This document shows, piece after piece, positions 14,898 through 38,830 of a stretch of DNA of 42,870 nucleotides. Position 1 is the stretch's first letter, and each line of letters begins with the position of its first letter. A program made the translations under genes and the position numbers. This DNA is from Candidatus Omnitrophota bacterium (GTDB taxonomy: Bacteria > Omnitrophota > Gorgyraeia > Duberdicusellales > 4484-171), in NCBI GenBank assembly GCA_028711575.1, contig JAQTSA010000002.1, positions 1 through 42,870 of the forward strand, given 5' to 3'. A model generated the notes under the pieces. The model was not told the origin of the DNA. It made no database searches and saw only the letters and a list, made by a program, of their open reading frames with translations.

Positions 14898-15347
14898 ATG
14901 CAAAATTTAACTCATGATTTTCTGAATAATAAGGTTTTTTGGGTCACGGTACTTAGTTGGGCGGTCGCTCAAGGAATAAAAATTATAATCGGTCTTTTTC
15001 AAGAGCGGAAATTCAATTTTTATTGGCTTCTTCGTACCGGGGGAATGCCTTCGGCACATACCGCGGCCGTTGTTTCTTTGTCGGTATCTTTGGGGCGTTC
15101 GGAAGGATTTTCTTCACCGGTTTTTGCCTTAAGCGCCTTATTTGCTTTGATAACAATGTTTGATGCTCAAACCTGGCGTCGTTATATCGGCGTTCAGGCG
15201 GGAATTCTTAATCGAATTATCGAAGATTTGCATGAAAATCGAAAAATAACAGAACAAAGATTAAAAGAACTTGTTGGACATACCCCAGTTGAAGTTTTTG
15301 TTGGAGCAATTCTCGGTGCAGTTATTTCCATCTTGTTTTATAGATAA
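14898..15347 (+). CDS. Divergent PAP2-family membrane protein (DUF212/YuiD-like)
   Basis: RTGGMPSAHTAAVVSLSVSLG...FDAQTWRRYIGVQAGILNRI...LKELVGHTPVEVFVGAILG. Confidence 0.88.
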   Translation: MQNLTHDFLNNKVFWVTVLSWAVAQGIKIIIGLFQERKFNFYWLLRTGGMPSAHTAAVVSLSVSLGRSEGFSSPVFALSALFALITMFDAQTWRRYIGVQAGILNRIIEDLHENRKITEQRLKELVGHTPVEVFVGAILGAVISILFYR

Positions 15348-20171: not shown

Positions 20172-20540
20172 ATGGGCAGAATACTTGTTGTTGAGGATGA
20201 AATCGAAATTTTAAACCTTCTCGAAAAAGGTTTGAAACGTCACAATTTTACGATTGAGGTTTCCAGAGACGGCCGTGACGCTATAGAAAAGGTAGAAAGC
20301 TTCTCGCCGGATATAGTTATTCTTGATATAATGTTACCGGAGTTAGATGGGGTAAGCGTGTTGAAATGGATTAAAGAACGTTATCCACATGTCAAAGTTA
20401 TGATGGCAACAGCCAAAGATGAAATCGAGGATATAAAAAATGGGTTTCTAAGTAAAGCCGATTACTATATAACTAAACCATATGTTTTTGAAGAAATAAT
20501 TAAAGGCGTACAAATTTTACGTGAATTAAACAGCGAATAA
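20172..20540 (+). CDS. CheY-like response regulator receiver protein
   Basis: ILVVEDEIEILNLLEKGLKRH, DIVILDIMLPELDGVSVLKWIK, MMATAK, ADYYITKPYVFEEI. Confidence 0.93.
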   Translation: MGRILVVEDEIEILNLLEKGLKRHNFTIEVSRDGRDAIEKVESFSPDIVILDIMLPELDGVSVLKWIKERYPHVKVMMATAKDEIEDIKNGFLSKADYYITKPYVFEEIIKGVQILRELNSE

Positions 20541-20575
20541 AGTTTTTAAAACTGTTTTTATTAAGGAGGTTGACA

Positions 20576-21877
20576 ATGATATCGTTACCATTTTTGCCGC
20601 TTAAAAGAAGAATCTGGATAGCAATATCGCTTACAACTTTTATACCGCTAATAATATTTTTGTACTATATTAATGAATATGTTTTGGAATTTCCAGCATT
20701 GGTTTGTTTGGGCTTTCTTGTTTTCCTTGGCTGGTGGATCGTGTTTGAAGTCTTTCGAACAATAACCCGGGTAAACTTATCGTCCAAAAAAGCGCTGGAA
20801 GAACTTGGCCATCAAGCCCCGGCTTTGCCGAATGAGGTAGAAAGCTTAGAATCGGTCATCAGCATGCTTTCGGTCAGAGTAAAAAACAGTTTTGAACAGT
20901 TAAAAGATTTTAGTAAACAGACTGAAGAGCTAAATAGAGAAGTTTCTAAGAAAGTTGTTGTTCTGTCGACTATTTTGCAGGCTAATGAATTGTTCTCAAA
21001 AGAAACCCCTCCGGAAGAAATTGTCCAATTCCTTTTACGGCGGCTACAGGATTCTTTAGGTATGAAATGCTGTTTTTGCGGTTTACACTCGGAGATTAGC
21101 CGACGGCTTCAAATTGTCAGCTGTAACGGAATTGATGCTGTAACGGTCGAGGATATATTCCTTGAAGCCCAAGATTATTTCAATCATTTGTCGAAAACGA
21201 TTATTCTTTCTCCCGGAACACCTAACGATGTGCCTTTTGATTTTCAGGCTAAACTAATGCTGCAAAATATTGCTTTCGCTCCGATTATTTCCGACAAAAG
21301 AATTATTGGGCTAATTGGTATCGGCAATAATTCTTTCAGCGAGGCCTTCAACGAAGATGCTTTGGACGTTTTAAGCCTTTTTTCTCAAAACGTTGCTCTT
21401 ATTTGGGAACATAAACGGTTGTCGATTAAAGTGGAAAATCTGGAAATTTTTGATTCTTTAACTGGACTCTATAACGAGAAATATATCAAGGCGCGACTTG
21501 AAGAAGAGATCCAACGCTCATCGGCTTATCAACGTCCTTGCGGGTTTATGGCGATGAAAATACATTTTTACCACCGTTATCAAAAAGAGCGCGGTGTTAT
21601 TGAAGCAGAAAAACTTTTGAAAAAAGTGGCTAAAATCTTCAAAGAAACTTTACGGCCGATAGATATAATCGGCAGGGTAAGTGTTGATACTTTAGCGGCA
21701 ATACTGATTGAACGCAATAAACGGCAATCACAAGAAGTAGCAAACGCCTTAGGCGAAAAATTAAAGCAGATATATAAGGAAGAAGTCACCTTTCTATTCT
21801 CTGTAGTAGAGAGCCCAGTTGACGGCGTAATTTCTAAGGAGTTACAACAGGCAATAAAAAAGCAATTTGAGGAGTAG
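20576..21877 (+). CDS. Membrane-anchored GAF + degenerate GGDEF-domain protein
   Basis: N-terminal TM helices, GAF-like region, then DSLTGLYNEKYIKARLEEEIQRS (GGDEF-domain start); the active-site region reads IIGRVSVDTLAAIL. ATG at 20576 fits the GGAGGT ribosome-binding site better than the TTG start in the track. Confidence 0.75.
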   Translation: MISLPFLPLKRRIWIAISLTTFIPLIIFLYYINEYVLEFPALVCLGFLVFLGWWIVFEVFRTITRVNLSSKKALEELGHQAPALPNEVESLESVISMLSVRVKNSFEQLKDFSKQTEELNREVSKKVVVLSTILQANELFSKETPPEEIVQFLLRRLQDSLGMKCCFCGLHSEISRRLQIVSCNGIDAVTVEDIFLEAQDYFNHLSKTIILSPGTPNDVPFDFQAKLMLQNIAFAPIISDKRIIGLIGIGNNSFSEAFNEDALDVLSLFSQNVALIWEHKRLSIKVENLEIFDSLTGLYNEKYIKARLEEEIQRSSAYQRPCGFMAMKIHFYHRYQKERGVIEAEKLLKKVAKIFKETLRPIDIIGRVSVDTLAAILIERNKRQSQEVANALGEKLKQIYKEEVTFLFSVVESPVDGVISKELQQAIKKQFEE

Positions 21878-21883
21878 TTATCA

Positions 21884-22327
21884 ATGAGGTTTAATCGGCA
21901 TGACGAAAAACCGTTAGGTGAGATTTTGATGGAAAGAGGGATTTTAACTCGCTTACAGTTAGACGAATCTTTATTAACTCAAAAAAAAGAAGGCGGTTTA
22001 ATTGGCGAAATTATTGTAAATCTTGGCTTTGCTAAAGAAGAAGACATCGCTCATTGTTTTTCTCTGCAATACGGGTTTCCTTATTTACCGCTTACCAACT
22101 ATGAAATATCTAAAGAGGTTGTTGAACTTATTCCTCAGAGTGTTATGAGTCATTATTGTCTTATCCCAATCGACAGGATAGAGAACACATTAACGGTAGC
22201 GATGGCAAATCCTTTAAATATTCACGCGATAGAAGATATAGAGGATTTAACTAAATGTGATATTCAGATTTTTGTAAGTACACCGTCGGATATTCGCAAA
22301 CATATTGAGATGGTAAGAGAAATCTGA
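21884..22327 (+). CDS. Stand-alone MshEN (T2SS protein E N-terminal) domain protein
   Basis: LGEILMERGILTRLQLDESLLTQ...IGEIIVNLGFAKEEDIAHCFSLQYGFPYLPL...ENTLTVAMANPLN; no ATPase domain. Confidence 0.85.
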   Translation: MRFNRHDEKPLGEILMERGILTRLQLDESLLTQKKEGGLIGEIIVNLGFAKEEDIAHCFSLQYGFPYLPLTNYEISKEVVELIPQSVMSHYCLIPIDRIENTLTVAMANPLNIHAIEDIEDLTKCDIQIFVSTPSDIRKHIEMVREI

Positions 22328-22394: not shown

Positions 22395-24101
22395 ATGGGG
22401 ATGAAAAACAAAAAATTTACCGAATATCTATTAGAAGAAAACTTTCTTTCTCAGGAAGAGCTTAATAAAATTCTGTTAGTTCAAAAAGAAAAAAAGGGCT
22501 CATTAGTTGAGCTTTTGATCGAATCAGGTTATATTGAAGAGCCTCAAGTTTTAAGTCTGCTTTCCCGATACCTCGGCATGCCCCCGGTTAGAGTCTTACA
22601 TCTTAATATCAGCGATGAAATCCTTAAAATTATACCGGAAAACCTTGCCCGTCAGTATCAGGTGTTGCCGATTGGCCGCATAGGCAATACCGTAACGATA
22701 GCTATGGCCGACCCTTTAAATGTTTTGCTGATTGATGATTTAAAAACTTTAACTGCTTGTCAAATCAATCCGGTTATTGCGCCGTTGTCGGAAATAAAAG
22801 AAGCGATTGGCAATTATTATATGCCTAAAGCGCTTGACACGATTGAGGAAATAGTTAAAGGAAACTCGGCCGAAGGAATTGAATTCATCCAAACTAAAAT
22901 AGATGATTCTTCCGAGGAACATATCCTTAATCCGATTGACGAGGCGCCGGTCATAAAATACAACAATTATATTCTTGAAAAAGCTGTAGAGGAAAGGACT
23001 TCTGACATATTGATTGAACCTTTAGAAAAGTCCGGCAGGGTCAGGTTTAGAGTTGACGGACTTTTAAAAATAGCTGAGACTTATCCTAAGAAAATGCATC
23101 CTTTTATAATTTCCCGGATTAAAGTTATGAGCAATCTTAACATAACGGAACATCGCCTGCCTCAAGACGGCCGGTTTCGCGGTAAAATCCATAATAAAGA
23201 GGTTGATTTTCGGGTTTCAGTTTTGCCTTCAAGCATGGGCGAAAAAATAGCTTTACGGGTTCTTGATAAATCGACTGCTTTTTTAGACTTAGGCCTTCTT
23301 GGGTTTGAGGAAGAAGTAGCTTTAAAAATAAAAGAGGATTCTTTAAAGCCGCATGGTTTAATTCTTGTTTGTGGGCCCACCGGGTCAGGAAAAACTACCA
23401 GTTTATATTCGATAATGAAATACATTTATTCACCGGAAAAAAACATAACAACTGTTGAAGACCCGATTGAATATCAGATGAAAGGAATAAATCAAGTTAG
23501 CATTGAACCGAGCATTGGTTTGACTTTTGCGTCTACTTTGCGGTCATTGTTGCGTCAAGATCCCGATGTGGTAATGATTGGTGAAATCCGTGACGCTGAA
23601 GCTGCCGCAATCGCTATAAAAGCGGCTTTAACCGGCCACTTAGTTTTGTCTACTTTGCATACGACAACTTCTCCGGGTTCAATTTCAAGGTTGCTTAATA
23701 TGGGGATTGAACCTTTTTTGTTGTCTTCAACCTTGGTTGGCGTTTTGACTCAACGCTTAGTTCGGAGGTTATGTCCGCGCTGTAAAGAAGCTTATGAAGT
23801 GCCTTCTGTTCTCAGTGATAAATATTTTAATGGCGAAAAAATTACTCTATATCGACCTAAAGGCTGCAGCTTTTGCCAAAATTTCGGTTATAAGGGGCGG
23901 TTGGTTGAATGTGAATATCTACAAGTCGTTACCCAAGTTAAAGAACTTATTGCCAATCGGGCGACAGAACAGGTTTTAAAAAAAGAGGCCCGAAAATCCG
24001 GTATGTATACTTTACGTCAAGATGGATTGATAAAAGCAAGAAACGGTATAACTAGTCTGGAGGAAGTTTTAAGAACAACGGCTCCTGATGAGCCGTTATA
24101 A
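22395..24101 (+). CDS. pilB: Type IV pilus assembly / type II secretion ATPase (PilB/GspE family) 1
   Basis: GPTGSGKTTSLYSIMKYI, VEDPIEYQMKGINQVSIEPSIGLTFASTLRSLLRQDPDVVMIGEIRDAEAAAIAIKAALTGHLVLSTLHT, CPRC...CSFC zinc motif. Confidence 0.93.
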   Translation: MGMKNKKFTEYLLEENFLSQEELNKILLVQKEKKGSLVELLIESGYIEEPQVLSLLSRYLGMPPVRVLHLNISDEILKIIPENLARQYQVLPIGRIGNTVTIAMADPLNVLLIDDLKTLTACQINPVIAPLSEIKEAIGNYYMPKALDTIEEIVKGNSAEGIEFIQTKIDDSSEEHILNPIDEAPVIKYNNYILEKAVEERTSDILIEPLEKSGRVRFRVDGLLKIAETYPKKMHPFIISRIKVMSNLNITEHRLPQDGRFRGKIHNKEVDFRVSVLPSSMGEKIALRVLDKSTAFLDLGLLGFEEEVALKIKEDSLKPHGLILVCGPTGSGKTTSLYSIMKYIYSPEKNITTVEDPIEYQMKGINQVSIEPSIGLTFASTLRSLLRQDPDVVMIGEIRDAEAAAIAIKAALTGHLVLSTLHTTTSPGSISRLLNMGIEPFLLSSTLVGVLTQRLVRRLCPRCKEAYEVPSVLSDKYFNGEKITLYRPKGCSFCQNFGYKGRLVECEYLQVVTQVKELIANRATEQVLKKEARKSGMYTLRQDGLIKARNGITSLEEVLRTTAPDEPL

Positions 24102-25812
24102 GGCTACAGTTAGAATAAAGATTTCAAAAATTTTCATGATAAAAGAAAGAATTATAAAATATATCCAAAAAAATAAAGCCATTGATAAAAGCGTCTTGCA
24201 GGAGCTCATGGCTACCAAAGATTATAAATCTTTTAAACATCTTTTAATCAGAAAAAATTTATCAACTGAAGAAGACCTTCTTTTACTTTTTTCAAAAGAA
24301 TTTAAAATGCCTTTTCTTGATTTAAAGCGCTACAAAATTTCTTTTAAAAACAAAGAGTATTTACCCAAAGAAGTCGCTTTTCGATATAACGTACTTCCGA
24401 TATGTAAAATTGGTAACGCCTTAACTTTAGCAACAGCCAACCCTTTAGATGTTATTACTTACGATGATATTAAAATTCTTACTTCGGTCGGTAAAGTCGA
24501 TTTAGTTTTGTCGCGGGAGGATGATGTGGCTAAAGCTTTACAAACTCTTTATAAGTCTCCGGAAGAAGTTGTTTCTTTTTTAGACGATGATATATCTTTT
24601 GAGTTAAGTAAGATGGACGGCGAAGATTCGTTAGAAAATCTCGTTACCGAAAGTCAGCGCCCGCCGATTGTTCGGGCAATTGATTTAGTCATTTACAATG
24701 CTTTAAAAAAGAGAGCTTCTGATATTCATATTGAGCCTTATGAAGATGGTTTAATGGTTAAATATCGAGTCGATGGTGCTTTGTCTGAAGAGTTTAGCTT
24801 TCCTAAATCTAATCAAGCCGCGGTTATTGCCCGGCTTAAAATAATTTCGTCTTTAGATATAACTGAATCGCGCCTTCCTCAAGACGGCCGGTTCAAAGTT
24901 ACTTTTCAAGATCGGGAAATTGATTTTCGGGTTTCTAGTTTGCCGATCCAATACGGTGAAAAATTTGTATTACGGGTCCTTGATAAGAAAAGGTTGTCAG
25001 TAGGTCTGAAGAATTTGGGGTTTTCTCCTAAACCGCTCGCGGTATTTGAGCAAGCCAGTAAACATCCTTTTGGGATCATTCTTGTAACTGGTCCAACCGG
25101 TTCGGGAAAATCGACAACTCTTTATTCGATAATCAATCAGATAAATACGCCGGAAAAAAATATTATTACTATAGAAGATCCGATAGAATATCAGATCGAG
25201 GGTATTACTCAGATTCAGGCTAAAGCTGAGATTGGTTTAACTTTTGCCAGTGGCCTTAGATCAGTGCTAAGGCAGTCGCCGGACATTATAATGGTCGGAG
25301 AAATTCGTGACGCTGAAACTGCTGATATCGCCGTAAAAGCGTCCTTAACCGGGGAAGTAATTCTTTCAACATTACATACAAATACGGCGGTTGGCGCGAT
25401 TACTCGATTAATAGACATGGGCGTTGAGCCGTTTCTTTTAGCGTCATCGTTGGTCGCCTCTACCGCTCAGCGGTTGGTCAGACAGTTGTGTTCTCATTGT
25501 AAAGAAGCTTATACTATCGAAGAAGAAACTTTAACTAAACTGTCGTTTAGTTCTAAACAGCGGCAATTTTATCGGGCTAAAGGCTGTAGTCAATGTAATA
25601 ATACCGGATATCGGGGGCGGATAGCAATTCTTGAAATTTTGATGTTAGATGATAGAATTAGAGAAATGATTGTTAATCATGCCAGTGAAGAAGAAATTAT
25701 CGAGTACGCTAAAAAAGCCCAAGACTTTACCTTTTTAAGAGATGACGGGTTTTTAAAGTGCATTGATGGCGAAACTTCTTTAGAAGAAGTCCTTAGAGTT
25801 ACAACTGAGTAA
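24088..25812 (+). CDS. Type IV pilus assembly / type II secretion ATPase (PilB/GspE family) 2
   Basis: GPTGSGKSTTLYSIINQI, IEDPIEYQIEGITQIQ, LRQSPDIIMVGEIRDAETADIAVKASLTGEVILSTLHT, CSHC...CSQC. The start may be the Met at 24136. Confidence 0.92.
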   Translation: MSRYKATVRIKISKIFMIKERIIKYIQKNKAIDKSVLQELMATKDYKSFKHLLIRKNLSTEEDLLLLFSKEFKMPFLDLKRYKISFKNKEYLPKEVAFRYNVLPICKIGNALTLATANPLDVITYDDIKILTSVGKVDLVLSREDDVAKALQTLYKSPEEVVSFLDDDISFELSKMDGEDSLENLVTESQRPPIVRAIDLVIYNALKKRASDIHIEPYEDGLMVKYRVDGALSEEFSFPKSNQAAVIARLKIISSLDITESRLPQDGRFKVTFQDREIDFRVSSLPIQYGEKFVLRVLDKKRLSVGLKNLGFSPKPLAVFEQASKHPFGIILVTGPTGSGKSTTLYSIINQINTPEKNIITIEDPIEYQIEGITQIQAKAEIGLTFASGLRSVLRQSPDIIMVGEIRDAETADIAVKASLTGEVILSTLHTNTAVGAITRLIDMGVEPFLLASSLVASTAQRLVRQLCSHCKEAYTIEEETLTKLSFSSKQRQFYRAKGCSQCNNTGYRGRIAILEILMLDDRIREMIVNHASEEEIIEYAKKAQDFTFLRDDGFLKCIDGETSLEEVLRVTTE

Positions 25813-25824
25813 AAGGAGCGAAAA

Positions 25825-27033
25825 ATGAAATCTTTTTCCTATGTCATCAAAGATAATCAGGGTCAAATCCGTAAAGGAGTGCTTGACGTTGAATCTCAGG
25901 ATAAACTAATTGAGTATTTTCATAAAGAGTCTTGTGTTATTATCTCGATTAAAGAAAGGAAAAAAACAGCTCAGCGGCAACACAGCAGTCGTATCAGCGT
26001 GGATGATTTAGTTATTTTTTCCCGTCAGTTTACCACGCTGATTGAAAGCGGTATCCCGGCGGTTGAATCTTTAGCTATTCTTCAAGATCAGGTGGAAAAG
26101 CCTTATTTTAAAGCGGTTATTGCCATGATTCTAAAAGATGTCCGTGAAGGCGCCTCATTAGCTAATACTTTAAAAAAACACCCGAAAGTGTTTCCCGAAA
26201 TTTACGTCAGCATGGTGGAAGCGGCTGAAGTCAGCGGGAATCTGCCGGAAATTTTAGAACGGTTATCGATCTATCTTGAAAAAAGCAGTGCTTTAAGAAA
26301 AAAAGTAGCTTCAGCCATGTATTATCCGGTCATTATTTTACTAATGGCGGGAGGAATTACAACTTTTTTAATGGTTAAAGTTATTCCGACGTTTCAGAGT
26401 ATATTTGATATGTTGGGCGGAAACTTACCTTTACCAACCCAGATTCTGCTTCTTGTGTCAAATGTTTTACGTTCCTACTTTCTTATTGTGGTGATAGTTT
26501 TTATAGTTGTATCGGCTTTGTTTTTAAAATATATAAATACTGATCGGGGAAAGCGTCAGTATCACAAAACGCTTTTACGGCTGCCGATTTTAGGAAACTT
26601 AATAAGAAAAATTGCGATTGCTAAATTTGCCCGTACTTTTGCGACTTTAGTCCGAAGCGGAGTTACGGTTATAAAATGTTTAGACATAGTAGCTAAGACT
26701 TCGGGAAATAAAATTTTGGAAGAGGCAGTTATCAAAGCGAAAAAATCTATTCTTGAAGGTCAGCCGATATCTTTGCCGTTAGAAGAAAGCGGTATTTTTC
26801 CTCCGATGGTCACAAAAATGATTGCGATCGGTGAAAAGAGCGGAAAACTCGAAGAGATGCTTTCCAAAGTCGCGCAATTTTACGAAGAACAAACCGACGC
26901 GATGATTACCGGATTAAGCAGTTTGATCGAACCTCTGGTTATTGGTGTTTTAGGGGTTGTAATTGGCGGGATAGTTGTGTCTTTATTCTTGCCGATTATC
27001 AAAATAACCCAATATATCGGAACCGGGATGTAA
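25825..27033 (+). CDS. pilC: Type IV pilus inner-membrane platform protein PilC/GspF
   Basis: VIFSRQFTTLIESGIPAVESLAIL, ASAMYYPVIILLMAGGITTFLMVKVIPTF, FARTFATLVRSGVTVIKCLDIVAKTSGN, GEKSGKLEEMLSKVAQFYEEQ. Confidence 0.95.
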   Translation: MKSFSYVIKDNQGQIRKGVLDVESQDKLIEYFHKESCVIISIKERKKTAQRQHSSRISVDDLVIFSRQFTTLIESGIPAVESLAILQDQVEKPYFKAVIAMILKDVREGASLANTLKKHPKVFPEIYVSMVEAAEVSGNLPEILERLSIYLEKSSALRKKVASAMYYPVIILLMAGGITTFLMVKVIPTFQSIFDMLGGNLPLPTQILLLVSNVLRSYFLIVVIVFIVVSALFLKYINTDRGKRQYHKTLLRLPILGNLIRKIAIAKFARTFATLVRSGVTVIKCLDIVAKTSGNKILEEAVIKAKKSILEGQPISLPLEESGIFPPMVTKMIAIGEKSGKLEEMLSKVAQFYEEQTDAMITGLSSLIEPLVIGVLGVVIGGIVVSLFLPIIKITQYIGTGM

Positions 27034-27097
27034 TTGGTTTTATTCTGTTTATTTGTTTTTTAGCCGTAATTAGGCCAAATGTAAAAAAAATGTAAAT

Positions 27098-27126
27098 TTG
27101 ACATTAGTTGTAATAAGTGCTATAGT
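27098..27126 (+). promoter_or_regulatory. Consensus sigma70 promoter for the major pilin
   Basis: TTGACA (27098-27103), 17-nt spacer, TATAGT (27121-27126) with TG two bases before the -10. Confidence 0.75.
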
Positions 27127-27233
27127 TAAATTGAAGTCTTTATCTTTAACCTTTTTAGGCCCAGACTGCCGAAAAAAAGGAGGAAAAGTAGAAGGCAAAA
27201 AAAGGCCTTACAAAACAAATCGGAGGTATCGAA

Positions 27234-27686
27234 ATGCGTAAAGGTTTTACTCTTGTTGAAATTATGATTGTTGTTGCTATTATTGCTCTTTTAGCGGCAA
27301 TAGCTATTCCTAACCTTTTAAGAGCTCGAGTTTCGGCTAATGAAGCTGCGGCCGCAGCGGCGATGCATACCATAGCTGCCGCTCAAATTCAGTATCGGGC
27401 ATCTAACCCGACCTATGCTTCTTTAGGAACTTTAGGTAATGCTACTCCGCCTTATATCGATTCTAGGCTTGCTGGCGGAAGCAAACAGGGCTATAACTTT
27501 ACATCTGGATTTTCAACTGGCGCGAACTTTTGGGCTGCTGGTGAACCTCAAGACAATACCGCCGCGCATACGTTCTATATCGATGAGGACGGTGTTATTT
27601 GTCGTTCTTCCAATACCAGTGTTAGCGCTGAGACTTCACATTTTAACGGATCGGGCTGTCCAACGGGTTATGCTGAAGTAGAATAA
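27234..27686 (+). CDS. pilA: Type IV pilin (probable major pilin)
   Basis: MRKGFTLVEIMIVVAIIALLAAIAIPNLLRARVSANEAAAAAAMHTI; C-terminal Cys-Cys loop; own promoter and terminator. Confidence 0.93.
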   Translation: MRKGFTLVEIMIVVAIIALLAAIAIPNLLRARVSANEAAAAAAMHTIAAAQIQYRASNPTYASLGTLGNATPPYIDSRLAGGSKQGYNFTSGFSTGANFWAAGEPQDNTAAHTFYIDEDGVICRSSNTSVSAETSHFNGSGCPTGYAEVE

Positions 27687-27712
27687 TCACTTAAAGCTAA
27701 ACAATGAAACTT

Positions 27713-27743
27713 AAGGCGGTGGTTTTTAACCACCGCCTTTTTT
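27713..27743 (+). terminator. Rho-independent terminator after the pilin
   Basis: AAGGCGGTGGTTTTTAACCACCGCC followed by TTTTTT. Confidence 0.92.
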
Positions 27744-27823
27744 ATTGACTTGTTTGTTTTTAACAATCGGCTATAATAATTGTAGTCTGGGAAAATTAGA
27801 AAAATAAGATTATATCAAAATTT

Positions 27824-28315
27824 ATGATTATCAAACAGAACCGATTAAAAGCAAAAGCTTTTACCTTAATAGAAATAATGCTCGTTATTACTATTTTAGT
27901 TACTTTAGCGGCGATTGCGATTCCTTCATTGCTGCGGGCTTTTGTTACATCAAAAGAAACGACGGCCATAGCCGCCTTAAAAACAATTCTCACGGCAGAA
28001 ATAAAGTATCGGGCAACTAATCCGGTTTATGCCAGCTTAGAGACCTTAGGCGGTGCTAATTATCCTTACCTCGATTCCAAGCTTGGCTGCAGCACGCCGC
28101 CCTGCAAAAAACAGAACTATTTATTTAATGTTACTCCGCTGAGCGGTAACGGATTTTTTGCTGTTGCTGATCCCGAAGAGCCGGACAATTATCGCACCTT
28201 TTATATCGATGAGTCCGGCGTTATCTGTCGTTCAAATACGACTAATACCCCGGTCGCTACCGCTCATGCCAACAGTTCGTCTTGTCCCCCAGGCTATGAT
28301 CAGTGCGGTCAGTAA
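27824..28315 (+). CDS. Second type IV pilin
   Basis: KAFTLIEIMLVITILVTLAAIAIPSLLRAFVTSKETTAIAALKTI; C-terminal TFYIDESGVICRSNTTNTPVATAHANSSSCPPGY is homologous to the first pilin. Confidence 0.9.
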   Translation: MIIKQNRLKAKAFTLIEIMLVITILVTLAAIAIPSLLRAFVTSKETTAIAALKTILTAEIKYRATNPVYASLETLGGANYPYLDSKLGCSTPPCKKQNYLFNVTPLSGNGFFAVADPEEPDNYRTFYIDESGVICRSNTTNTPVATAHANSSSCPPGYDQCGQ

Positions 28316-28398
28316 TTTATAAAAATTATAAACTGGTCAGGCCGTTGTTTTTTTTCGGTTCTATGGTAATATTGACTTATATCAATCAATAAAACTAA

Positions 28399-30984
28399 AT
28401 GAAACGTATTATTTGTTTTCATATATTTTTGATTCTCTTAGGGTTTGCTCTTTTTGTGAGATCCTTTCCGGCGTATTTTCCTCAGTTTAAAAAACAAGCC
28501 GCTTTTGATGTTGAGTTTAAACAGCGGCAAATTGTCCGAAAACAAGTTGCTGATCGTTACCCGGACTATAACGCGGCGATTAAAGATAAAATTATTTCTA
28601 AAATTGTATCTCAAGACCAAAAAGATAAAGTTTTTTTTAATGCCCAAATAGAAAAAGAGTATGATTCGCTAAAAGCTAAATATCAAGACGAAAAAGGCTT
28701 AAGTTATTTTTTAGAAGTTGACCCTTATTGCCGATTGCGTCATACCCGGCTTATTTTGGAGAATGGTTACCCGGGCAACAAAAAAGATGATAAAAATATT
28801 TATGATACTTTTATGCTTGCTCCGAAAGGAGAACCGGTTCAGCCCCATCGGTTTCTGTATTATTTTTCGGCATACTTTTATAAATTGGTTACGATTTTTT
28901 CTCCCGGCCTTTCTTTAGATACTTTTCTTTTTTATTTTCCCTTATTTCTTTTGGCTGTTTTTTTAATAGCCTTCTACTTTTTTTGCGTGACATTTTTTTC
29001 TGAGGTCACTGCTGTTTTAGCGGTATTTTTTGTAAGTACACCAACAGTTTTTATCTTACGTAGTTCGGCCGGATGGTTCGATACTGACATCCTAAACTTA
29101 TTGTTGCCGTTAACGGTTATCTGGTGTTTAGGCCTTGCTGTCAGAGCCGACCGACTGGCCAAATCTACTTTATTTGCGGCTTTAGCCGGTTTTTTTCTTT
29201 CGATATTTGCTTACCACTGGGTTGGTTGGTGGTTTATCATGTTGGTTAGTTTCGGTTTTTTTGTTTTTGCAATTAGCAACCTGATCTCATTGCATTATAA
29301 GGACCGGGCTGAATTGTTAAGAAAAATAAGGCCTTATCTTTTTTCTTTACTGGTGTTTCTGCTTTCCAGCCTTGGGTTTTGTCTTTGGATAGCTGGATTT
29401 GAGCCTTTTAGTTTTGCCTATAGCTCGCTTCAACAAAACTTTGGTCTGGGCAAATCGATGACTCCATCAATTTGGCCTTTAGTAGAATATACGGTCTCAG
29501 AATTAAAACAAGGCAATCCCTTAAATGTGGTTATTCATCTTGGTTTTGATCTTCCGATGGTTGTTTTGGCTCTTTTTAGCACTTTGTTTGTTTTTATAAA
29601 AGAGAAACGTACCCATCGATCGGACGTTGTTGTTCTTTTGCTGTGTTGGCTCTTTTTTATGGCTTTTGCTTTTCTAAAAGGTGTGCGTTTTTCTTTGTTT
29701 CTCATTGTGCCTTTAGCGGTATTTCTAGCTTACACTATCGAATCCGTTGGCCAGGTCTTAATTGATCGGTTTAAGCATAAAATATCGCCAAAGCTTACCG
29801 CGGTGATTAGTTTAATTTTTCTTCTTGTTGTTTTTAGGATGATTTTTCCTGTAGCTAAAAACTCAATCCAAAATAGCTATTCTTTGATCCCGATGATGAA
29901 CGATACTTTAGCTGGAGTGATGAATGAAATTAGAGAAAAAACCCCCTCAAACAGTATCATCAATTCCTGGTGGGATTACGGAAACTGGTTTAAAGAAATC
30001 GCTCGGCGGAGAACGATAGTCGATCCCCAAATACAAAATCGTCCGATAACTTATTGGATGGCCAGGGTCATTGTTTCCAGCGATGAAGAAGAAGCTATCA
30101 GGGTATTGAGAATGATAAATAATTCTTCTGATTTATTGTTTGACCGGATTAACAAATTTTTTGGTGACGAATTTAAAACAATAGCTTTTTTAAGCCGGTT
30201 AATCAAAGAGCCGTATTCCGCGGCAAAGAAAACTGTCGTTGAATATTCTTTGCCGCCGGAGATTGCCCGCGACATTCTGGATAACCTGTTTATAAAAGAA
30301 CCGGCTCCAGCTTATTTTGTTGTTGATAAAAAAATGATCGGGTTTATGTCGAACATCTCTTTTTTAGGAAACTGGAATTTCCCTAAAGTCTACGTAATTA
30401 AACACCTTAACCAGCCAAAAGATACGGTTTTAAATTATTTGAAAGACGTCTTTGGTTTATCTTTTGCTGATGCTGAGTCCCTTTACAATGAAGTAATCTT
30501 TTCTACGACAAAAAGGGAGGAAAGTGAGGTTCTTTCAAAACGGGTTTTTTTTGTTTTACCGCTTTCCGATGGCGAGGTTTCAGAACAAACAATTTACTTT
30601 GATAACAGCGTTGTTTTTGATTTAAATAAAATCGAGGCAAGAAAGTATTTTGAGGCCGGTAGCCTTTGGCGAAAGTTTGGATTTGTATATTTTTATGACG
30701 GAAATACCGTTTCTTTTTCTAAGTCTAAGCAAGAAGAACCGAAAGAAAAACAAGTTAACCTTCAGAATGCTGAAATTCCTTTAAAATCCGGGGTGCTGAT
30801 TATTAAAGAAAAAGATGCTTTTAAATGCGTAGGGCTTTCTGATGAGCAACTGGCTAATAGTATTTTTAGCCGAATGTTTTTTTTAAATGGTAAAACCCTA
30901 AAATATTTTGTGCCGGTTATCGGCGATCAGGAAACCGGCACAATAGTTTTTAAAATTGAGTGGCCTAAATCGGAAGACTTATAA
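28399..30984 (+). CDS. STT3-family oligosaccharyltransferase (AglB/PglB-like)
   Basis: VDPYCRLRHTRLILENGYPG (first acidic motif), SSAGWFDTDILNLLLPL (second acidic motif), NSIINSWWDYGNWFKEIARRRTIVDPQIQNRPITYWMARVIVSSDEEEAIRVLRMIN (WWDYG catalytic motif); N-terminal multi-TM region and C-terminal soluble domain. Confidence 0.93.
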   Translation: MKRIICFHIFLILLGFALFVRSFPAYFPQFKKQAAFDVEFKQRQIVRKQVADRYPDYNAAIKDKIISKIVSQDQKDKVFFNAQIEKEYDSLKAKYQDEKGLSYFLEVDPYCRLRHTRLILENGYPGNKKDDKNIYDTFMLAPKGEPVQPHRFLYYFSAYFYKLVTIFSPGLSLDTFLFYFPLFLLAVFLIAFYFFCVTFFSEVTAVLAVFFVSTPTVFILRSSAGWFDTDILNLLLPLTVIWCLGLAVRADRLAKSTLFAALAGFFLSIFAYHWVGWWFIMLVSFGFFVFAISNLISLHYKDRAELLRKIRPYLFSLLVFLLSSLGFCLWIAGFEPFSFAYSSLQQNFGLGKSMTPSIWPLVEYTVSELKQGNPLNVVIHLGFDLPMVVLALFSTLFVFIKEKRTHRSDVVVLLLCWLFFMAFAFLKGVRFSLFLIVPLAVFLAYTIESVGQVLIDRFKHKISPKLTAVISLIFLLVVFRMIFPVAKNSIQNSYSLIPMMNDTLAGVMNEIREKTPSNSIINSWWDYGNWFKEIARRRTIVDPQIQNRPITYWMARVIVSSDEEEAIRVLRMINNSSDLLFDRINKFFGDEFKTIAFLSRLIKEPYSAAKKTVVEYSLPPEIARDILDNLFIKEPAPAYFVVDKKMIGFMSNISFLGNWNFPKVYVIKHLNQPKDTVLNYLKDVFGLSFADAESLYNEVIFSTTKREESEVLSKRVFFVLPLSDGEVSEQTIYFDNSVVFDLNKIEARKYFEAGSLWRKFGFVYFYDGNTVSFSKSKQEEPKEKQVNLQNAEIPLKSGVLIIKEKDAFKCVGLSDEQLANSIFSRMFFLNGKTLKYFVPVIGDQETGTIVFKIEWPKSEDL

Positions 30985-31068
30985 TCTTTTGAGGATTTGT
31001 TGACAACTGTGATATCTAGTATAATATTATAGGTAGAGAAACGAAAACAAAATTAAAGTTTTAAAATA

Positions 31069-31539
31069 ATGAAAGGCCAGGCAAGAAGTTTCTTAGTAAA
31101 AGAAAGAAAACTTAAGGCTCAACTCTCTTTGGGGTTCACTTTGGTTGAGATAATGATTGTTATCGCAATTATTATTATCTTAGCCGCCGCCTTGCTGCCG
31201 AACATTCTTCGGGCCCAAATCATATCAAATGAGGCAACTGCCATAAGCAATTTGCGCGGAACGTTTACCGTTTTACAGATATATTATAATGACCATAACC
31301 GTTCTTTTCCCCAGGAATTTTCTGATCTTAGCGGATATATAAGTCAGAAACTGATTTCCGGTGAAAAATCAGGATATTTATTCAATTATACTCGGGATAG
31401 TGCCGATGAATTTCATCTGAATGCTAATCCCCGGACACATAAACGAACCGGCGAAAAATATTTTTATTTAGATGAAACCGGTATAATGCGTTATGATTTA
31501 ACGCAGGAAGCTGACGAGAATGATAACATTACCGAATAG
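31069..31539 (+). CDS. Third type IV pilin-like protein
   Basis: LSLGFTLVEIMIVIAIIIILAAALLPNILRAQIISNEATAISNLRGTF; about 22-aa leader if the annotated ATG is used. Confidence 0.87.
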   Translation: MKGQARSFLVKERKLKAQLSLGFTLVEIMIVIAIIIILAAALLPNILRAQIISNEATAISNLRGTFTVLQIYYNDHNRSFPQEFSDLSGYISQKLISGEKSGYLFNYTRDSADEFHLNANPRTHKRTGEKYFYLDETGIMRYDLTQEADENDNITE

Positions 31540-32497
31540 TAAGATCAGCACAAAAAAAAGTTTTGTTGCTATTAATTTAGGCAACAACAGCGTAAAAGGG
31601 GTAGTAGTTTCGGCTAATAAAATTGTTGATTATTTTATTGAAAAAAAAGATGATCTACCTGTATTGTTAAAAGATATTTGGAGTAAAAAACGAAACCTTC
31701 CTGAAAAAGTTAAAATTTCCCTAAAAGATCCGGCAACTTTGATCCGATATTTTAATTTTCCTAAGTTAGACAAAAAAAAGATGCGGGCCGCGCTTTTTTT
31801 TGAGCTTAACAAACATATTCCTTTTTTACCGCAGGAAGTTTATTTTGATTATGCGATTTTAGAAGAGGCGTCTCCACGGGAAGTTTTTTTACTGCTTGCT
31901 GTCGCTAAGAAACAGTTTATTGATGCAATTGTCAGCGCTTTCCAAAACCAAGGTTTAAAAATTATAGATATTAATTTAGATAGTGTTTGTCTGGCGAATC
32001 TTTTCTTAAAAGTATATAAAGAAGAAAAGAATAAAAACAGCGCTATTTTAGACATTGGGCATAGTTGCTCTAGTTTAAGCATTTTAAAAGATGGCTTGCC
32101 TTTTGTAACTCGGGATTTAGAGTTTAATGGCAGTGATGCTTTTTCAACTTTATCGCATATGAAAGCTCTGCCGCTGAAAGAAATAGAAGCCTGGGTCGAA
32201 TCTCCTGAAAATTCCGGCGAATTTTTATCGTTGATCCAATACAGCATTTCTAATTTAGCCAAAGAAATAAAAAATTCTTTTGACTACTTTGAATTAAATA
32301 AGGGTGAAAGGGTACAAACACTTTATCTTACAGGAGGGTTGGCTAATCTCGCGGAGCTTAATGAGGTTTTTAGTGAATCTTTAGGGCTTGAGGTTAAGAC
32401 TTTGGGAGATTTTTCAAAACTTAATCTGAGTTTACCAGACGCCGAGTTTGATAAGGTTAAAAACGGTTTAGCTGTTTCTCTGGGCTTGTCGTTGTAA
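31520..32497 (+). CDS. pilM: PilM-like actin-fold pilus assembly protein
   Basis: FVAINLGNNSVKGVVVS, ELNKHIPF..QEVYFDYAILEE, AILDIGHSCSSLSILKDGLPFVTRDLEFNG, LTGGLANLAEL. Confidence 0.85.
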   Translation: MITLPNSKISTKKSFVAINLGNNSVKGVVVSANKIVDYFIEKKDDLPVLLKDIWSKKRNLPEKVKISLKDPATLIRYFNFPKLDKKKMRAALFFELNKHIPFLPQEVYFDYAILEEASPREVFLLLAVAKKQFIDAIVSAFQNQGLKIIDINLDSVCLANLFLKVYKEEKNKNSAILDIGHSCSSLSILKDGLPFVTRDLEFNGSDAFSTLSHMKALPLKEIEAWVESPENSGEFLSLIQYSISNLAKEIKNSFDYFELNKGERVQTLYLTGGLANLAELNEVFSESLGLEVKTLGDFSKLNLSLPDAEFDKVKNGLAVSLGLSL

Positions 32498-32514
32498 CTT
32501 AAAGAATTAAAAAA

Positions 32515-33078
32515 ATGGAAAAAATAAAAATCAATCTTAATCCAAGCAAGGAAGAAAAGCTGGAACTATTTTTTGATAAAGCGGTCGAGACTAATCCTTC
32601 CTTAATTATGGTTATTATAGTTATGGCGGCTATAACTTTAGTTTTACAAATGATAGTATTTTCTAAAGGCGCCCGTTACCGGGCTTTAGCCCGGGAGTGG
32701 AAACAATGGGAAAGTAAATATCAGGCTGTAACCGAATTAAAAAACGAAATGATTAAATTAGAGCAGAATAAAAAAATGGTTGAGGGCGGTCTTGTGCCAG
32801 TGAATGTTTCTAAACTGTTGGAAGCGGTTTACGTGTCTTTGCCGAGCAATATCTGGTTTGATATTTTGGAGTATCGGCCTCAGAAATTTTATATTAAAGG
32901 TAAAGTCGTTAAAATGCAGGAAGATGCCATGGTTTCTTTGGGGGATAAATTTATTAAACCTCTGAAAGAACAAAAAGCTTTTACCGATCTTTTTAAAGAA
33001 ATAAATATAAAAAATACCCATAAAACGCTGTATCGCGGCGTTGATGTTTTGGAGTTTGAAATAGAATGTCTAAATTAA
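32515..33078 (+). CDS. pilN: PilN-like pilus assembly protein
   Basis: KINLNPSKEEK N-terminus, one TM helix, coiled coil, periplasmic domain (VYVSLPSNIWFDILEYRPQKFYIKGKV); position between pilM and pilO. Confidence 0.75.
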   Translation: MEKIKINLNPSKEEKLELFFDKAVETNPSLIMVIIVMAAITLVLQMIVFSKGARYRALAREWKQWESKYQAVTELKNEMIKLEQNKKMVEGGLVPVNVSKLLEAVYVSLPSNIWFDILEYRPQKFYIKGKVVKMQEDAMVSLGDKFIKPLKEQKAFTDLFKEINIKNTHKTLYRGVDVLEFEIECLN

Positions 33079-33623
33079 ACCGATTATTAGAAAAAGAAAG
33101 AATTGTCTTTATCGTTTTAGCTTTGATTTGTTTGTTTGGTATTTTTTTTGTTTTACCGGTAAGTTTTACGAACGCTTTTCGGATTGGTAAAGCTAAAGTG
33201 GGAGTAAACGATAAGTTAAATCAAGTTAAGGCTTTTTGGCCACAAAAAGATCAGTACCACAAAAACATTAAATCTTTAACGGAAGAGATTGATTCTGTTC
33301 AATCAAAAATAATTGAATCTCAGCAAGAACCTGAATTTTTGTCATTTGTGTCATCTAAAAGTAAAGAGTTTAATATTGATATAGAAATTCTTCAGCCCCT
33401 AAGCCAGACTTTCTATATAAATTTAGGTGATAAAGTCTTAAATTATTTTCCAGTAAAGATAAAAGCCAAGGGTAGTTATCATGATTTGCAAAAATTTATT
33501 GATTATGTTCAGAACAGCCGGTATTTTATGGAAATAAAAGAGTTAAAGTTGTCTTTTCAAGGAACACATAATACTATTGAGATTTTGTTATGCGGTGTAA
33601 TTCAAAACAAAAAAGAGCAGTAG
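33066..33623 (+). CDS. pilO: PilO-like pilus assembly protein
   Basis: TM helix, coiled coil, then LSQTFYINLGDKVLNYFPVKIKAKGSYHDLQKFIDYVQNSRYFMEIKELKL. Confidence 0.8.
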   Translation: MSKLNRLLEKERIVFIVLALICLFGIFFVLPVSFTNAFRIGKAKVGVNDKLNQVKAFWPQKDQYHKNIKSLTEEIDSVQSKIIESQQEPEFLSFVSSKSKEFNIDIEILQPLSQTFYINLGDKVLNYFPVKIKAKGSYHDLQKFIDYVQNSRYFMEIKELKLSFQGTHNTIEILLCGVIQNKKEQ

Positions 33624-33937
33624 TTATCGGGGTTTTTTTATTAACCGGAATCTTTTTGACTTTGGCTGATAAATCCCATAGCCAAGGCCAGCGAGATCCG
33701 ATGAGTCCTTTAGTTTCGATTAATGGACAAATACTTATTGCTATTGATGATGGGCCCAGCGACCTTATTCTACAGGGAATACTCTATTCACCAGACTCGG
33801 CTTCGGTTATTATAAGCGGCGAAATCCTAAAAGAAAATGATAAAATTTACGATTATCTGGTAGAAAAAATAAGTGAAAAACAAGTCATTTTAGTTAATGA
33901 TAATGAAAAAATAGTTTTAAAATTGGAGGAAGAATGA
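33590..33937 (+). CDS. PilP/GspC-like small periplasmic protein
   Basis: N-terminal TM, RDPMSPLV, DLILQGILYSPDSASVIISGEILKENDKIYDYLVEKISEKQVIL; lies between pilO and the secretin gene. Confidence 0.65.
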   Translation: MRCNSKQKRAVVIGVFLLTGIFLTLADKSHSQGQRDPMSPLVSINGQILIAIDDGPSDLILQGILYSPDSASVIISGEILKENDKIYDYLVEKISEKQVILVNDNEKIVLKLEEE

Positions 33938-35355
33938 AGCTACTATCTCGTTTGTTTTTTATTTCGGTTTTTATTCTAGTCTTTGTGTCCGGGGAAGTTT
34001 TTTCACAGTCGGAAAATGTTATTTCAGCAATTAAATTTAAAGACGCGGATATTAATATTGTTCTGCAGTCTATAGCGGAAAAAGCTGTCAAAGGCGGTAA
34101 AAAAGTCAACATTGTAACTAGTCCCAATGTTCACGGTTTAGTTAGTGTAAATTTAGAAAGTGTTGATTGGCAAACAGCTATGAAAGTAATTTTAAAAGCT
34201 TATGATTATGGTTATGAATGGGTTGGCGAGAATATTGTTCTTGTCGCGCCATTAGATGAACTGGCGGATAAAAGGAAAAAATCAGCTTTGGCAAAAGAAG
34301 CGGAACCGTTAGAAACTAAAACGTTTATTTTGAGTTTTGCTAAGGTCGCTGATTTACAGGGATCAATCGCTAGTTTGTTGACTGAGCGCGGCCGATTAAC
34401 TTCAGATTCAAGGGCGAACGCTTTAGTCGTAGTTGATACTCAGTCAAGCCTGGAAGTTGTCGAAAAAGCTATCAGAAATTTGGATACAATTACTCCTCAG
34501 GTTTTAGTTGAAGCGAAGATTGTGGAAACAAACCTTAATAAATCAGAAAATTTGGGAATCAAATGGAACTTAAAGGTTTCGGCTTCCGGATCAAAGCGTC
34601 CGACGACTTGGCCGTTTACCTCTGAGGTTAAAGGAACCGGTTCAAAAATGTTTCCGGTAATCCAAACGCCAAGCGAGTTGGAAAGGGTTAATACTACCGA
34701 GACCAATGCTTCAGGGGACTCGGTTACTTCTTCAGAAGAACGAGTTTGGAATAAGTTAGCTCCAGGTTTCCCGGCAGTAAGCGCGGATGAATTTACTTTT
34801 GGAACTTTAGATTTTTCCCAAATGCAAGTTGTTTTAGAAGCTTTAGCTGCCCGTTCGGGAACGGAAATTGTATCTAACCCTAAAATAACAACTCTTGATA
34901 ATAGCCCGGCGTCGATTAAAGTTGCGACTGAATGGCCGATACCAAGATACACCTATAATAAAGAGACTGGAACCTATGAGATTACTGGTTTTGAGTATAA
35001 ACCGATAGGCGTAACTTTAAATGTCCTGCCTCAGATTAATCAGGAAGGATATATTACCATGGATATTCGTCCCGAGGTAAGTGAGATTATCGGTGAAGTA
35101 GCTTTTGGCGGCACGGCGAGTTTGCCTTTAGTTAATACTCAGACTACAGCTACCAAAGTTATGGTAAAAAATGGTGAAACCCTTGTTATTGGCGGGTTAA
35201 TAAAAGATAAAAAGGGTGATAATTATCAAAAGATACCGATTTTAGGGGATATTCCCTTTTTAGGTAGAATTTTTAAGTATAAGAGTAAAACTGGCGAGAA
35301 GAAGGACCTTTTAATTTTTATAACGCCGAAGATTATTACACCTAAGCGGGAGTAG
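33934..35355 (+). CDS. pilQ: Secretin (PilQ/GspD family)
   Basis: STN/N0 domain (IKFKDADINIVLQSIAEK), N1-like domain, secretin core IVSNPKITTLDNSPASIKVATEWP..., VMVKNGETLVIGGLIKDKK...IPILGDIPFLGRIFKYKSKTGEKKDLLIFITPKII. Confidence 0.94.
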   Translation: MKLLSRLFFISVFILVFVSGEVFSQSENVISAIKFKDADINIVLQSIAEKAVKGGKKVNIVTSPNVHGLVSVNLESVDWQTAMKVILKAYDYGYEWVGENIVLVAPLDELADKRKKSALAKEAEPLETKTFILSFAKVADLQGSIASLLTERGRLTSDSRANALVVVDTQSSLEVVEKAIRNLDTITPQVLVEAKIVETNLNKSENLGIKWNLKVSASGSKRPTTWPFTSEVKGTGSKMFPVIQTPSELERVNTTETNASGDSVTSSEERVWNKLAPGFPAVSADEFTFGTLDFSQMQVVLEALAARSGTEIVSNPKITTLDNSPASIKVATEWPIPRYTYNKETGTYEITGFEYKPIGVTLNVLPQINQEGYITMDIRPEVSEIIGEVAFGGTASLPLVNTQTTATKVMVKNGETLVIGGLIKDKKGDNYQKIPILGDIPFLGRIFKYKSKTGEKKDLLIFITPKIITPKRE

Positions 35356-35358
35356 ACA

Positions 35359-36156
35359 ATGACTACTGATTTTTCCGGGTTAAAACAGGCACCGTTTAAT
35401 ATTACCTGTAATCCTAATCTTTTTTTTGAGAGCGTTTCCCACAAAGAGGCTTATGCTGCCCTTTTGTACGGTATTCAGTGCAAAAAAGGAATTATTATGA
35501 TTACCGGAGAAGTTGGCACCGGGAAAACCACCCTTTGTAAGGTTTTACTTGAAAGACTTGACTCAAAAACAAAAACTTCTTTGATCTTAAATCCCTGTTT
35601 CAATGAAAGCGAATTGTTACGGGCAATTATTGAGGATTTTGGTATTGCCGATGTAAAGAGAAGCCGGCTTCAAATGATAAACCAGCTAAACTCCTTTTTA
35701 GTTGAAAGCAGCGCTGGTTCGGGTAACGCTGTGCTGATTATTGATGAAGCTCAAAATCTTTCTGATCGTCAGCTTGAACAAATAAGGCTTCTTTCTAACC
35801 TCGAAACTTATCAGCATAAATTATTGCAAATAGTTTTGGTAGGTCAGCCGGAGTTAGTTGATAAACTTAAAAAACCAAATTTGCGTCAGATCCGCCAAAG
35901 AATATTTGTTAAGTATAATTTGTCTCCTTTAAGCCGGAGTGAGATTGAAGAATATGTTAATATTCGGCTCCAGCAAACAGAAAACAAAAATATAATGTTT
36001 TATCCGGAAAGTTACGATATTATTTATAATTTTTCTCAAGGTATCCCAAGGCTGATTAATATGATTTGCGACCGGGCTTTACTTTTTGGTTTTGTTAAGG
36101 AGACTGATATTCTTGATAAAGCGGTTTTAGAATCTTGTCTTAAAGAGTTAATCTAG
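35359..36156 (+). CDS. ExeA/GspA-type AAA ATPase
   Basis: PFNITCNPNLFFESVSHKEAYAALLYGIQCKKGIIMITGEVGTGKTTLCK, AVLIIDEAQNLSDRQLEQIRLLSNLET, LVGQPELVDKLKKPNLRQIRQRI. Confidence 0.92.
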   Translation: MTTDFSGLKQAPFNITCNPNLFFESVSHKEAYAALLYGIQCKKGIIMITGEVGTGKTTLCKVLLERLDSKTKTSLILNPCFNESELLRAIIEDFGIADVKRSRLQMINQLNSFLVESSAGSGNAVLIIDEAQNLSDRQLEQIRLLSNLETYQHKLLQIVLVGQPELVDKLKKPNLRQIRQRIFVKYNLSPLSRSEIEEYVNIRLQQTENKNIMFYPESYDIIYNFSQGIPRLINMICDRALLFGFVKETDILDKAVLESCLKELI

Positions 36157-38101: not shown

Positions 38102-38830
38102 GTGAAACATTATTCAAAGCCAACTATAAGATTTATCTTATTCGTTGCTGTATTTGTCGGTTTGGTTTTTATCGGCAAAATTTTTTCGGTTGATACCCAA
38201 AATCTTTATAGTTACCTGGATAATATACCTAAACTTTACTCCTCGTTATTCTTTTTGTTTTTTTATGTTGTGGGAACTTTTTTTATATGGTACTTAAAAG
38301 ACCCATTAAAAATTATTGGTGCTCTCTGTTTTGGCGCCTACCTTAGTACCGGACTTATTTACTTAGCCGAAATAATTAATGCTTCGATTTTCTTTTTTTT
38401 CAGTTATAAACTCGGAAAGGATTTTGTCGCTAAAAAAATAAAAGGAAAATTTTCAAAATTATATGAAAAACTGGGAAATTTAGATTTTAAATGGATATTC
38501 CTTTTACGGGTTATACCCTTGATTCCTTATCGAGTCCTTGATTTAAGTTTTGGTTTAAGCCGGGTTCCTTTCCGGAAATACATTATTGTTGTTTTGCTGG
38601 GGTCTTTGCCGCGGATTTTTTTCCATCAATTTCCTTTAGCGCTGCTGCGTGATTTTTCGTTTAAGGAACTATCTGAAAAAATAAATAGTAATCCCTTTGA
38701 GATAATCCCGCTTTTATACCAAAAAATGTCTGAATATTTTTTGAGTCATCCTTTAATTCATTTATGGTTTTTTCTTTATGTCGTTTTTGCCTTTTTTGTG
38801 ATAATAAAGTTTAGAAAGCATATAAAGTGA
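38102..38830 (+). CDS. TVP38/TMEM64 (DedA/SNARE-associated) family membrane protein
   Basis: LGKDFVAKK...FKWIFLLRVIPLIPYRVLDLSFGLSRVPFRKYIIVVLLGSLPRIFF; GTG start adjoining the rlmN stop. Confidence 0.8.
   Translation: MKHYSKPTIRFILFVAVFVGLVFIGKIFSVDTQNLYSYLDNIPKLYSSLFFLFFYVVGTFFIWYLKDPLKIIGALCFGAYLSTGLIYLAEIINASIFFFFSYKLGKDFVAKKIKGKFSKLYEKLGNLDFKWIFLLRVIPLIPYRVLDLSFGLSRVPFRKYIIVVLLGSLPRIFFHQFPLALLRDFSFKELSEKINSNPFEIIPLLYQKMSEYFLSHPLIHLWFFLYVVFAFFVIIKFRKHIK

Follow-up and report, generated by a model that had tools for sequence, protein, structure and literature searches.

To our knowledge, studies of bacterial N-glycosylation have dealt almost entirely with Campylobacterota and a few Desulfovibrio, in which the single-subunit oligosaccharyltransferase (OST) PglB is a general-purpose enzyme, and where type IV pilins of bacteria are glycosylated, the linkage known to us is O-linked only. 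A second single-subunit OST, AglB, is archaeal. Pilins are served, in a dedicated or semi-dedicated manner, by the O-oligosaccharyltransferases PglL and PilO (TfpO); one account (PMC3643930) relates PglL to the WaaL O-antigen ligases and describes PglL-type genes as often adjoining possible target proteins.

The locus described here is from Candidatus Omnitrophota and has an OST gene of the STT3 family among type IV pilin genes. The window, by which we mean the whole stretch of DNA that was analysed (42,870 nucleotides of contig JAQTSA010000002.1, assembly GCA_028711575.1), comes from a draft genome of 1.99 Mb in 198 contigs that is 88% complete. Named sequences related to the STT3 put the window in Candidatus Omnitrophota. 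Its STT3 has the DPxxxxR first motif and the WWDYG motif in common with AglB, from which it is set apart by its bacterial host and by its place within a T4aP-type operon of bacteria (pilMNOPQ). Like PglB it is a bacterial single-subunit OST, but it is linked to pilins rather than to a pgl locus, and its likely substrates lack the preference for an acidic residue at -2 (D/E-X-N-X-S/T) of Campylobacter jejuni PglB. The O-linked enzymes PglL and PilO (TfpO) belong to a different family, and the PilO of this operon is, according to Pfam, the pilMNOP alignment protein and not the glycosyltransferase of identical name. We think it probable that the STT3 is a single-subunit N-oligosaccharyltransferase of the cytoplasmic membrane with the adjoining pilins as its main substrates, resulting in an N-glycosylated type IV pilus. 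The enzyme family is known; its dedication to pilins in a bacterial phylum appears to be new to the literature that we searched, in which we found no publication joining Omnitrophota with an oligosaccharyltransferase and nothing relevant on glycosylation of an omnitroph pilus. Most subscription journals and preprints lay outside that search, and absence from it does not prove novelty.

The pilus operon in the window and in relatives

The operon extends from 22395 to 35355 on the forward strand in the order pilB, pilB, pilC, pilin, pilin, STT3, pilin, pilM, pilN, pilO, pilP, and pilQ, with an XrtA-family ATPase gene after it (Table 1). Gaps of 83 bp and 84 bp precede and follow the STT3 gene, all on the same strand, and the reading frames and Pfam matches bear out the initial annotation, which had placed it between the second and third pilins, downstream of pilC and the major pilin. 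The three flanking pilin reading frames all have N-termini of the GFTLVE type. The ATPase related to the XrtA family is kept downstream of the secretin in three further syntenic loci (L031, L033, and L036). Terminator-like hairpins were matched 14 times in the region, compared to 4.5 in shuffles, and the strong one after the major pilin gene suggests, by inference, a higher level of transcription for the major pilin than for the downstream STT3.

Table 1. Features of the pilus locus, and the WWCPG paralogue; positions are those of the window unless a locus is named
Feature	Position	Strand	Evidence
PilB-type assembly ATPase 1	22395-24101	+	TIGR02538, 592 bits, below curated cut-off of 675.65
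PilB-type assembly ATPase 2	24088-25812	+	TIGR02538, 584 bits, below curated cut-off of 675.65
PilC inner-membrane platform protein	25825-27033	+	T2SSF PF00482, E 6.7e-59
Major type IV pilin, 4 sequons (N69 GNAT, N88 YNFT, N127 SNTS, N138 FNGS)	27234-27686	+	N_methyl PF07963, over cut-off
Terminator-like hairpin, strong, right after major pilin gene	27713-27739	+	12-bp stem, T tail
Second pilin, 3 sequons (N102 FNVT, N138 SNTT, N150 ANSS)	27824-28315	+	N_methyl, over cut-off
STT3/AglB/PglB-type oligosaccharyltransferase (GT66), 861 aa	28399-30984	+	PF02516, AF2/Foldseek, invariant catalytic residues
Third pilin, 3 sequons (N77 HNRS, N106 FNYT, N153 DNIT)	31069-31539	+	GFTLVEIMIVIAI N-terminus; N_methyl 20.3 bits, just under cut-off of 21.2
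PilM	31520-32497	+	PF11104, E 1.3e-26
PilN	32515-33078	+	No Pfam match; named by position and synteny in relatives
PilO	33066-33623	+	PF04350, E 2.5e-6
PilP-like small protein	33590-33937	+	T2SSB PF16537, E 6.8e-5, below cut-off; position and synteny in relatives
PilQ secretin	33934-35355	+	Secretin PF00263, E 2.9e-49
AAA ATPase, relative of XrtA/PEP-CTERM-associated ATPase family	35359-36156	+	TIGR03015, 281.8 bits, below cut-off of 324.5
WWCPG STT3 paralogue	L002:463-2922 and L047:7518-9977	- (L047)	Motif, T2SS neighbourhood

Just 5' of the two pilB genes, at 20172-22327, are genes for a receiver-domain protein, a GAF-GGDEF protein, and an MshEN-domain protein, which suggest control of the pilus by c-di-GMP. 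A GH94-superfamily protein is encoded on the reverse strand at 41237-42775, and its place beside the pilus operon is conserved in both G005 and G006.

Matches to STT3 were found in 26 of 97 related genomes, and six of these relatives have orthologues linked to pilus genes. In G005, G006, and G028 the gene lies immediately 5' of the last pilin and pilM, the same as in the window; in G015 and G018 it comes after the pilins and is followed by glycosyltransferases, and in G040 it comes after a pilin, close to the contig end. Pilins lay within a few genes of STT3 at 15 of the 50 Omnitrophota loci of the named genome scan; some of these 15 form a separate set of T2SS-like operons made up of pilB, pilC, three to five pilins, STT3, and a family 2 glycosyltransferase (GT2). 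A lack of STT3-pilin synteny in every relative would have refuted the initial annotation; the linkage recurs, with seven embedded genomes. The gene preceding STT3 at locus L100 encodes a prepilin peptidase. At six non-pilus loci (L101, L105, L110, L114, L120, and L140) a receiver-domain response regulator is encoded immediately 5' of STT3, often itself preceded by a protein of 460-490 aa that may be a sensor kinase.

Sequons in the adjoining pilins

If the STT3 modifies its neighbours, the adjoining pilins should be enriched in N-X-S/T. STT3-adjacent T4P pilins had 39 sequons where shuffled sequences predict 22 (z about 4), and the STT3-adjacent pilins of T2SS-like operons had 82 compared to 37 (z 8.4), whereas genomes without STT3 showed no excess in either T4P pilins (30 vs 32 expected) or T2SS-like pilins (42 vs 40 expected). 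Ser or Thr occupied N+2 in 36% of cases in embedded T4P pilins against 20% in matched STT3-less ones, and in 39% against 17% for the T2SS-like pilins (Fisher p 0.002 and 3e-8, respectively). The excess is sharp at this position (36-39% over a background of 18-20%), and no comparable peak was found at the other offsets from -5 to +5. Contrasted at the level of genomes, the difference gave p 0.013 for T4P and 0.0016 for T2SS-like pilins, with a stratified permutation p of about 1e-5. Thr outnumbers Ser at N+2 in the sequons of STT3-adjacent pilins, 75 to 46, and only 8% of these 121 sequons have D/E at -2, compared to a background of 10%. Acidic -2 specificity of the PglB type was rejected on this count, presuming that the pilins are the substrates, and the enzyme should act more like AglB/STT3 or the D. 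gigas PglB, for which no acidic -2 preference is reported (PMC4894442), than like C. jejuni PglB.

Sequon counts were ordinary in two of the seven embedded genomes (G005, 3/14; G006, 2/11), and pilins rich in sequons occur in a small number of genomes that lack STT3 (G037, 3/8; G088, 3/7). Restricted to the family of the window genome and one sister family, the comparison of seven embedded with seven STT3-less genomes went in the expected direction without reaching significance (p 0.13), and a test of phylogenetically independent pairs, with only three usable pairs, decides nothing. The genomes are MAGs, and incompleteness may have mislabelled some of them as lacking STT3. In the pilins beside STT3, in the window and its relatives, sequons are about double the number expected, which, as evidence from sequence alone, points to a putative dedicated system of pilus N-glycosylation. 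The initial annotation had inferred just such a pilin-directed module, and synteny and sequon enrichment both support it; the module is well supported by computation and not proved, N-glycosylation itself being an inference made without any glycopeptide or glycoprotein having been observed.

The STT3 could instead be a general-purpose periplasmic N-glycosylation enzyme that, like C. jejuni PglB, serves many exported proteins, its position in the pilus operon being incidental. Several relatives indeed have STT3 in polysaccharide or glycosyltransferase loci and not beside pilins, and T4P pilins in genomes where STT3 sits elsewhere are intermediate, with a mild enrichment (32/108 at N+2, z 2.3), so that adjacency is not needed for action on pilins. 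However, the pilin linkage is repeated in two operon types, and no N+2 excess is seen when 33 non-pilin proteins predicted to be exported are taken from the window genome (14.4% vs 12.9% background). General glycosylation of the secretome was rejected on this sample, which is drawn from one genome with a crude signal-peptide rule, and we regard the general-purpose enzyme as unlikely, though not to be set aside.

The AF2 model of the major pilin (pLDDT 91.6) bears only a weak likeness to type IV pilins. Of the four sequon asparagines in this model, two (N127 and N138) lie in the C-terminal loop, one (N88) belongs to the first strand, and N69 terminates a short helix.

Fold and catalytic residues of the transferase

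The reading frame opens with ATG, has no internal stops, and encodes an oligosaccharyltransferase of the STT3/AglB/PglB family, whose catalytic activity is inferred. Pfam STT3 (PF02516) matched it with an E value of 1.6e-31 and 110.7 bits (cut-off 24.5), and STT3-PglB_core (PF21436) with 22.6 bits, slightly below its cut-off of 23. Neither of two NCBIfam models reached its cut-off, these being the archaeosortase-linked STT3 TIGR04154 (64.6 bits, cut-off 450) and the PglB equivalog (only 31.8 bits, cut-off 1300). Among PDB sequences, the top match to a profile of 21 homologues was AfAglB (3.4e-27), with human and mammalian STT3A at 6.5e-21 to about 1e-20 and PglB at 5.3e-15. The AlphaFold (AF2) model (pLDDT 86, pTM 0.81) has the OST fold of a GT-C membrane domain and a periplasmic mixed domain. 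PglB (5ogl) tops its Foldseek list at 4.2e-19, eukaryotic (human and yeast) STT3 and AglB come next, and the best 20 matches are all OSTs or OST-containing complexes; those to PglB, AglB, and STT3 span most of the length of the model. Assignment to a non-OST GT-C family (ArnT, PMT, DPY19, or AftA) would have overturned the initial annotation, and it was rejected, since the fold matches of such proteins are far below those of OSTs (DPY19, AftA, and ArnT at 5e-7 or worse) and the HMM search likewise gave an OST.

A full set of STT3 motifs had also been claimed, and every motif quoted was found. D108 lies in EVDPYCRLR, D228 and D230 in GWFDTD, E368 in TVSE, R430 in GVRF, and WWDYG comprises residues 524-528. 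In an alignment of 13 orthologues, D108, R221, D228, D230, E368, R430, W524, W525, and D526 are invariant, the acidic residues thus being kept and not mutated, and Y527 may be F, giving WWD[YF]G. D108 (first loop), D228/D230 (DxD), E368 (the Glu of TIxE), and R430 are invariant in the 21 homologues as well. From established OST enzymology we take the conserved residues to be ligands of the metal, Arg residues of the active site, and the motif that binds Ser/Thr; the alignments agree with this assignment where they cover the residues.

Structure-based identity to known OSTs is low, at 13-16%, and the third catalytic-domain helix, aligned as GDEFKTIAFLSRLI, has neither a clean DK nor a clean MI motif. 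Both points leave room for a catalytically altered transferase of the GT66 fold, or one with a Ser/Thr, lipid, or polysaccharide acceptor, the sequon excess then having some other cause. Yet the OST catalytic set is retained, including the WWD[YF]G signature, and an enrichment specific to N-X-S/T at +2 is not expected of an enzyme that does not act on Asn; we consider this reading very improbable. Least credible to us is that STT3 is a recent insertion or passenger, in the operon by chance and outside pilus biology, as its absence from the pilus operon of several close relatives (G014, G024, G029, and G030, with others) might suggest, since the pilus position is kept clade-wide at about 40% protein identity, the reading frames adjoin in L031 (STT3 begins right after one pilin and overlaps the next), and linkage at 15/50 loci stands against a background roughly estimated at 0-6% of genes.

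Contig C134 of G000 carries a second STT3 paralogue, of 819 aa, with WWCPG in place of WWDYG, adjoining a T2SS/pseudopilin cluster and a PDZ/S41 protease-like gene. Similar paralogues lie by T2SS-like clusters in G023 (two tandem copies, L048) and G047 (L049). The C134 paralogue was rejected as a part of the same system: it belongs to a different clade, and the pseudopilins beside it show no sequon enrichment (7 vs 5.8 expected).

Proposed mechanism, donor glycan, and origin

In the mechanism that we propose for dedicated pilin glycosylation, STT3 would receive, at the periplasmic face, a glycan already assembled on a polyprenyl (pyro)phosphate carrier and would move it to the Asn of N-X-S/T sequons, in which X would not be Pro, Thr would be preferred to Ser, and an acidic residue at -2 would not be needed. 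The pilins encoded beside it would be the main acceptors, and the type IV pilus would be N-glycosylated. It is by inference that we name Asn as the acceptor, a lipid-linked glycan as the donor, a time of transfer in relation to pilus assembly, and a biological role (adhesion, shielding from proteases or phages, or surface recognition). A filament-dedicated N-linked system in Omnitrophota, if true, would extend N-glycosylation to bacterial pili, would give glycoengineering a new group of OSTs with relaxed specificity, and would be a testable case of exchange of N-glycosylation enzymes between archaea and bacteria. Operons with and without STT3, and pilins rich and poor in sequons, form a paired design by which the question is directly testable.

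The initial annotation had noted an absence of glycan-assembly genes nearby. This holds in the window, where no glycosyltransferase was recognisable in the part examined with HMMs, but not in several relatives, where such genes adjoin the orthologue. Some other part of the window genome must direct synthesis of the donor glycan; this genome has four initiating phosphoglycosyltransferases (PF02397) and 17 GT2 matches outside the window, none of them tied to STT3. A GT2 is found immediately 3' of STT3 in 34 of 44 Omnitrophota loci. Its best NCBIfam model is the archaeal AglJ, below cut-off, and because this model (TIGR04182) also matches in all 14 control genomes, we use "AglJ-like" for resemblance only. 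At one locus (L035), GT4s and a Wzx-like flippase come after STT3.

Proteins of the VTT/DedA and divergent PAP2 families can act on polyprenyl-phosphate carriers. The window encodes a VTT/DedA-family protein at 38102-38830 and a divergent PAP2 (DUF212) protein at 14898-15347, which are possibly relevant to carrier recycling. Next after the GT2 at locus L105, and after a second GT2 at locus L128, comes a GT-C transferase of the PMT/ArnT type, with a B12-binding radical SAM protein encoded behind it at L128; this transferase and its neighbours may elaborate the lipid-linked glycan.

A tree was calculated for 88 STT3 sequences from a pattern-based scan, without Campylobacterota PglB. The Omnitrophota STT3s are separate from archaeal (mostly DPANN) AglBs, and six pilus-embedded STT3s, including that of the window, form one clade (SH-aLRT 99). 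The nearest sequences from outside Omnitrophota are mostly from Woesearchaeota/DPANN. In previous work, bacterial homologues fell among the euryarchaeal branches of the AglB tree, and transfer from archaea to bacteria was inferred (PMC4973528); the direction is not settled by the present tree, which has no Campylobacterota PglB. We offer only tentatively, as a conjecture that may well prove wrong, that an AglB-like STT3 and an AglJ-like GT2 were exchanged as a pair between DPANN archaea and Omnitrophota and were joined more than once to pilin operons, both T4P and T2SS-like, giving rise to filament-dedicated bacterial N-glycosylation, with the WWCPG paralogue by the T2SS perhaps doing other chemistry. 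The STT3 on a contig labelled Candidatus Aminicenantes (L133) groups inside the archaeal clade, which may reflect either transfer or a misbinned contig.
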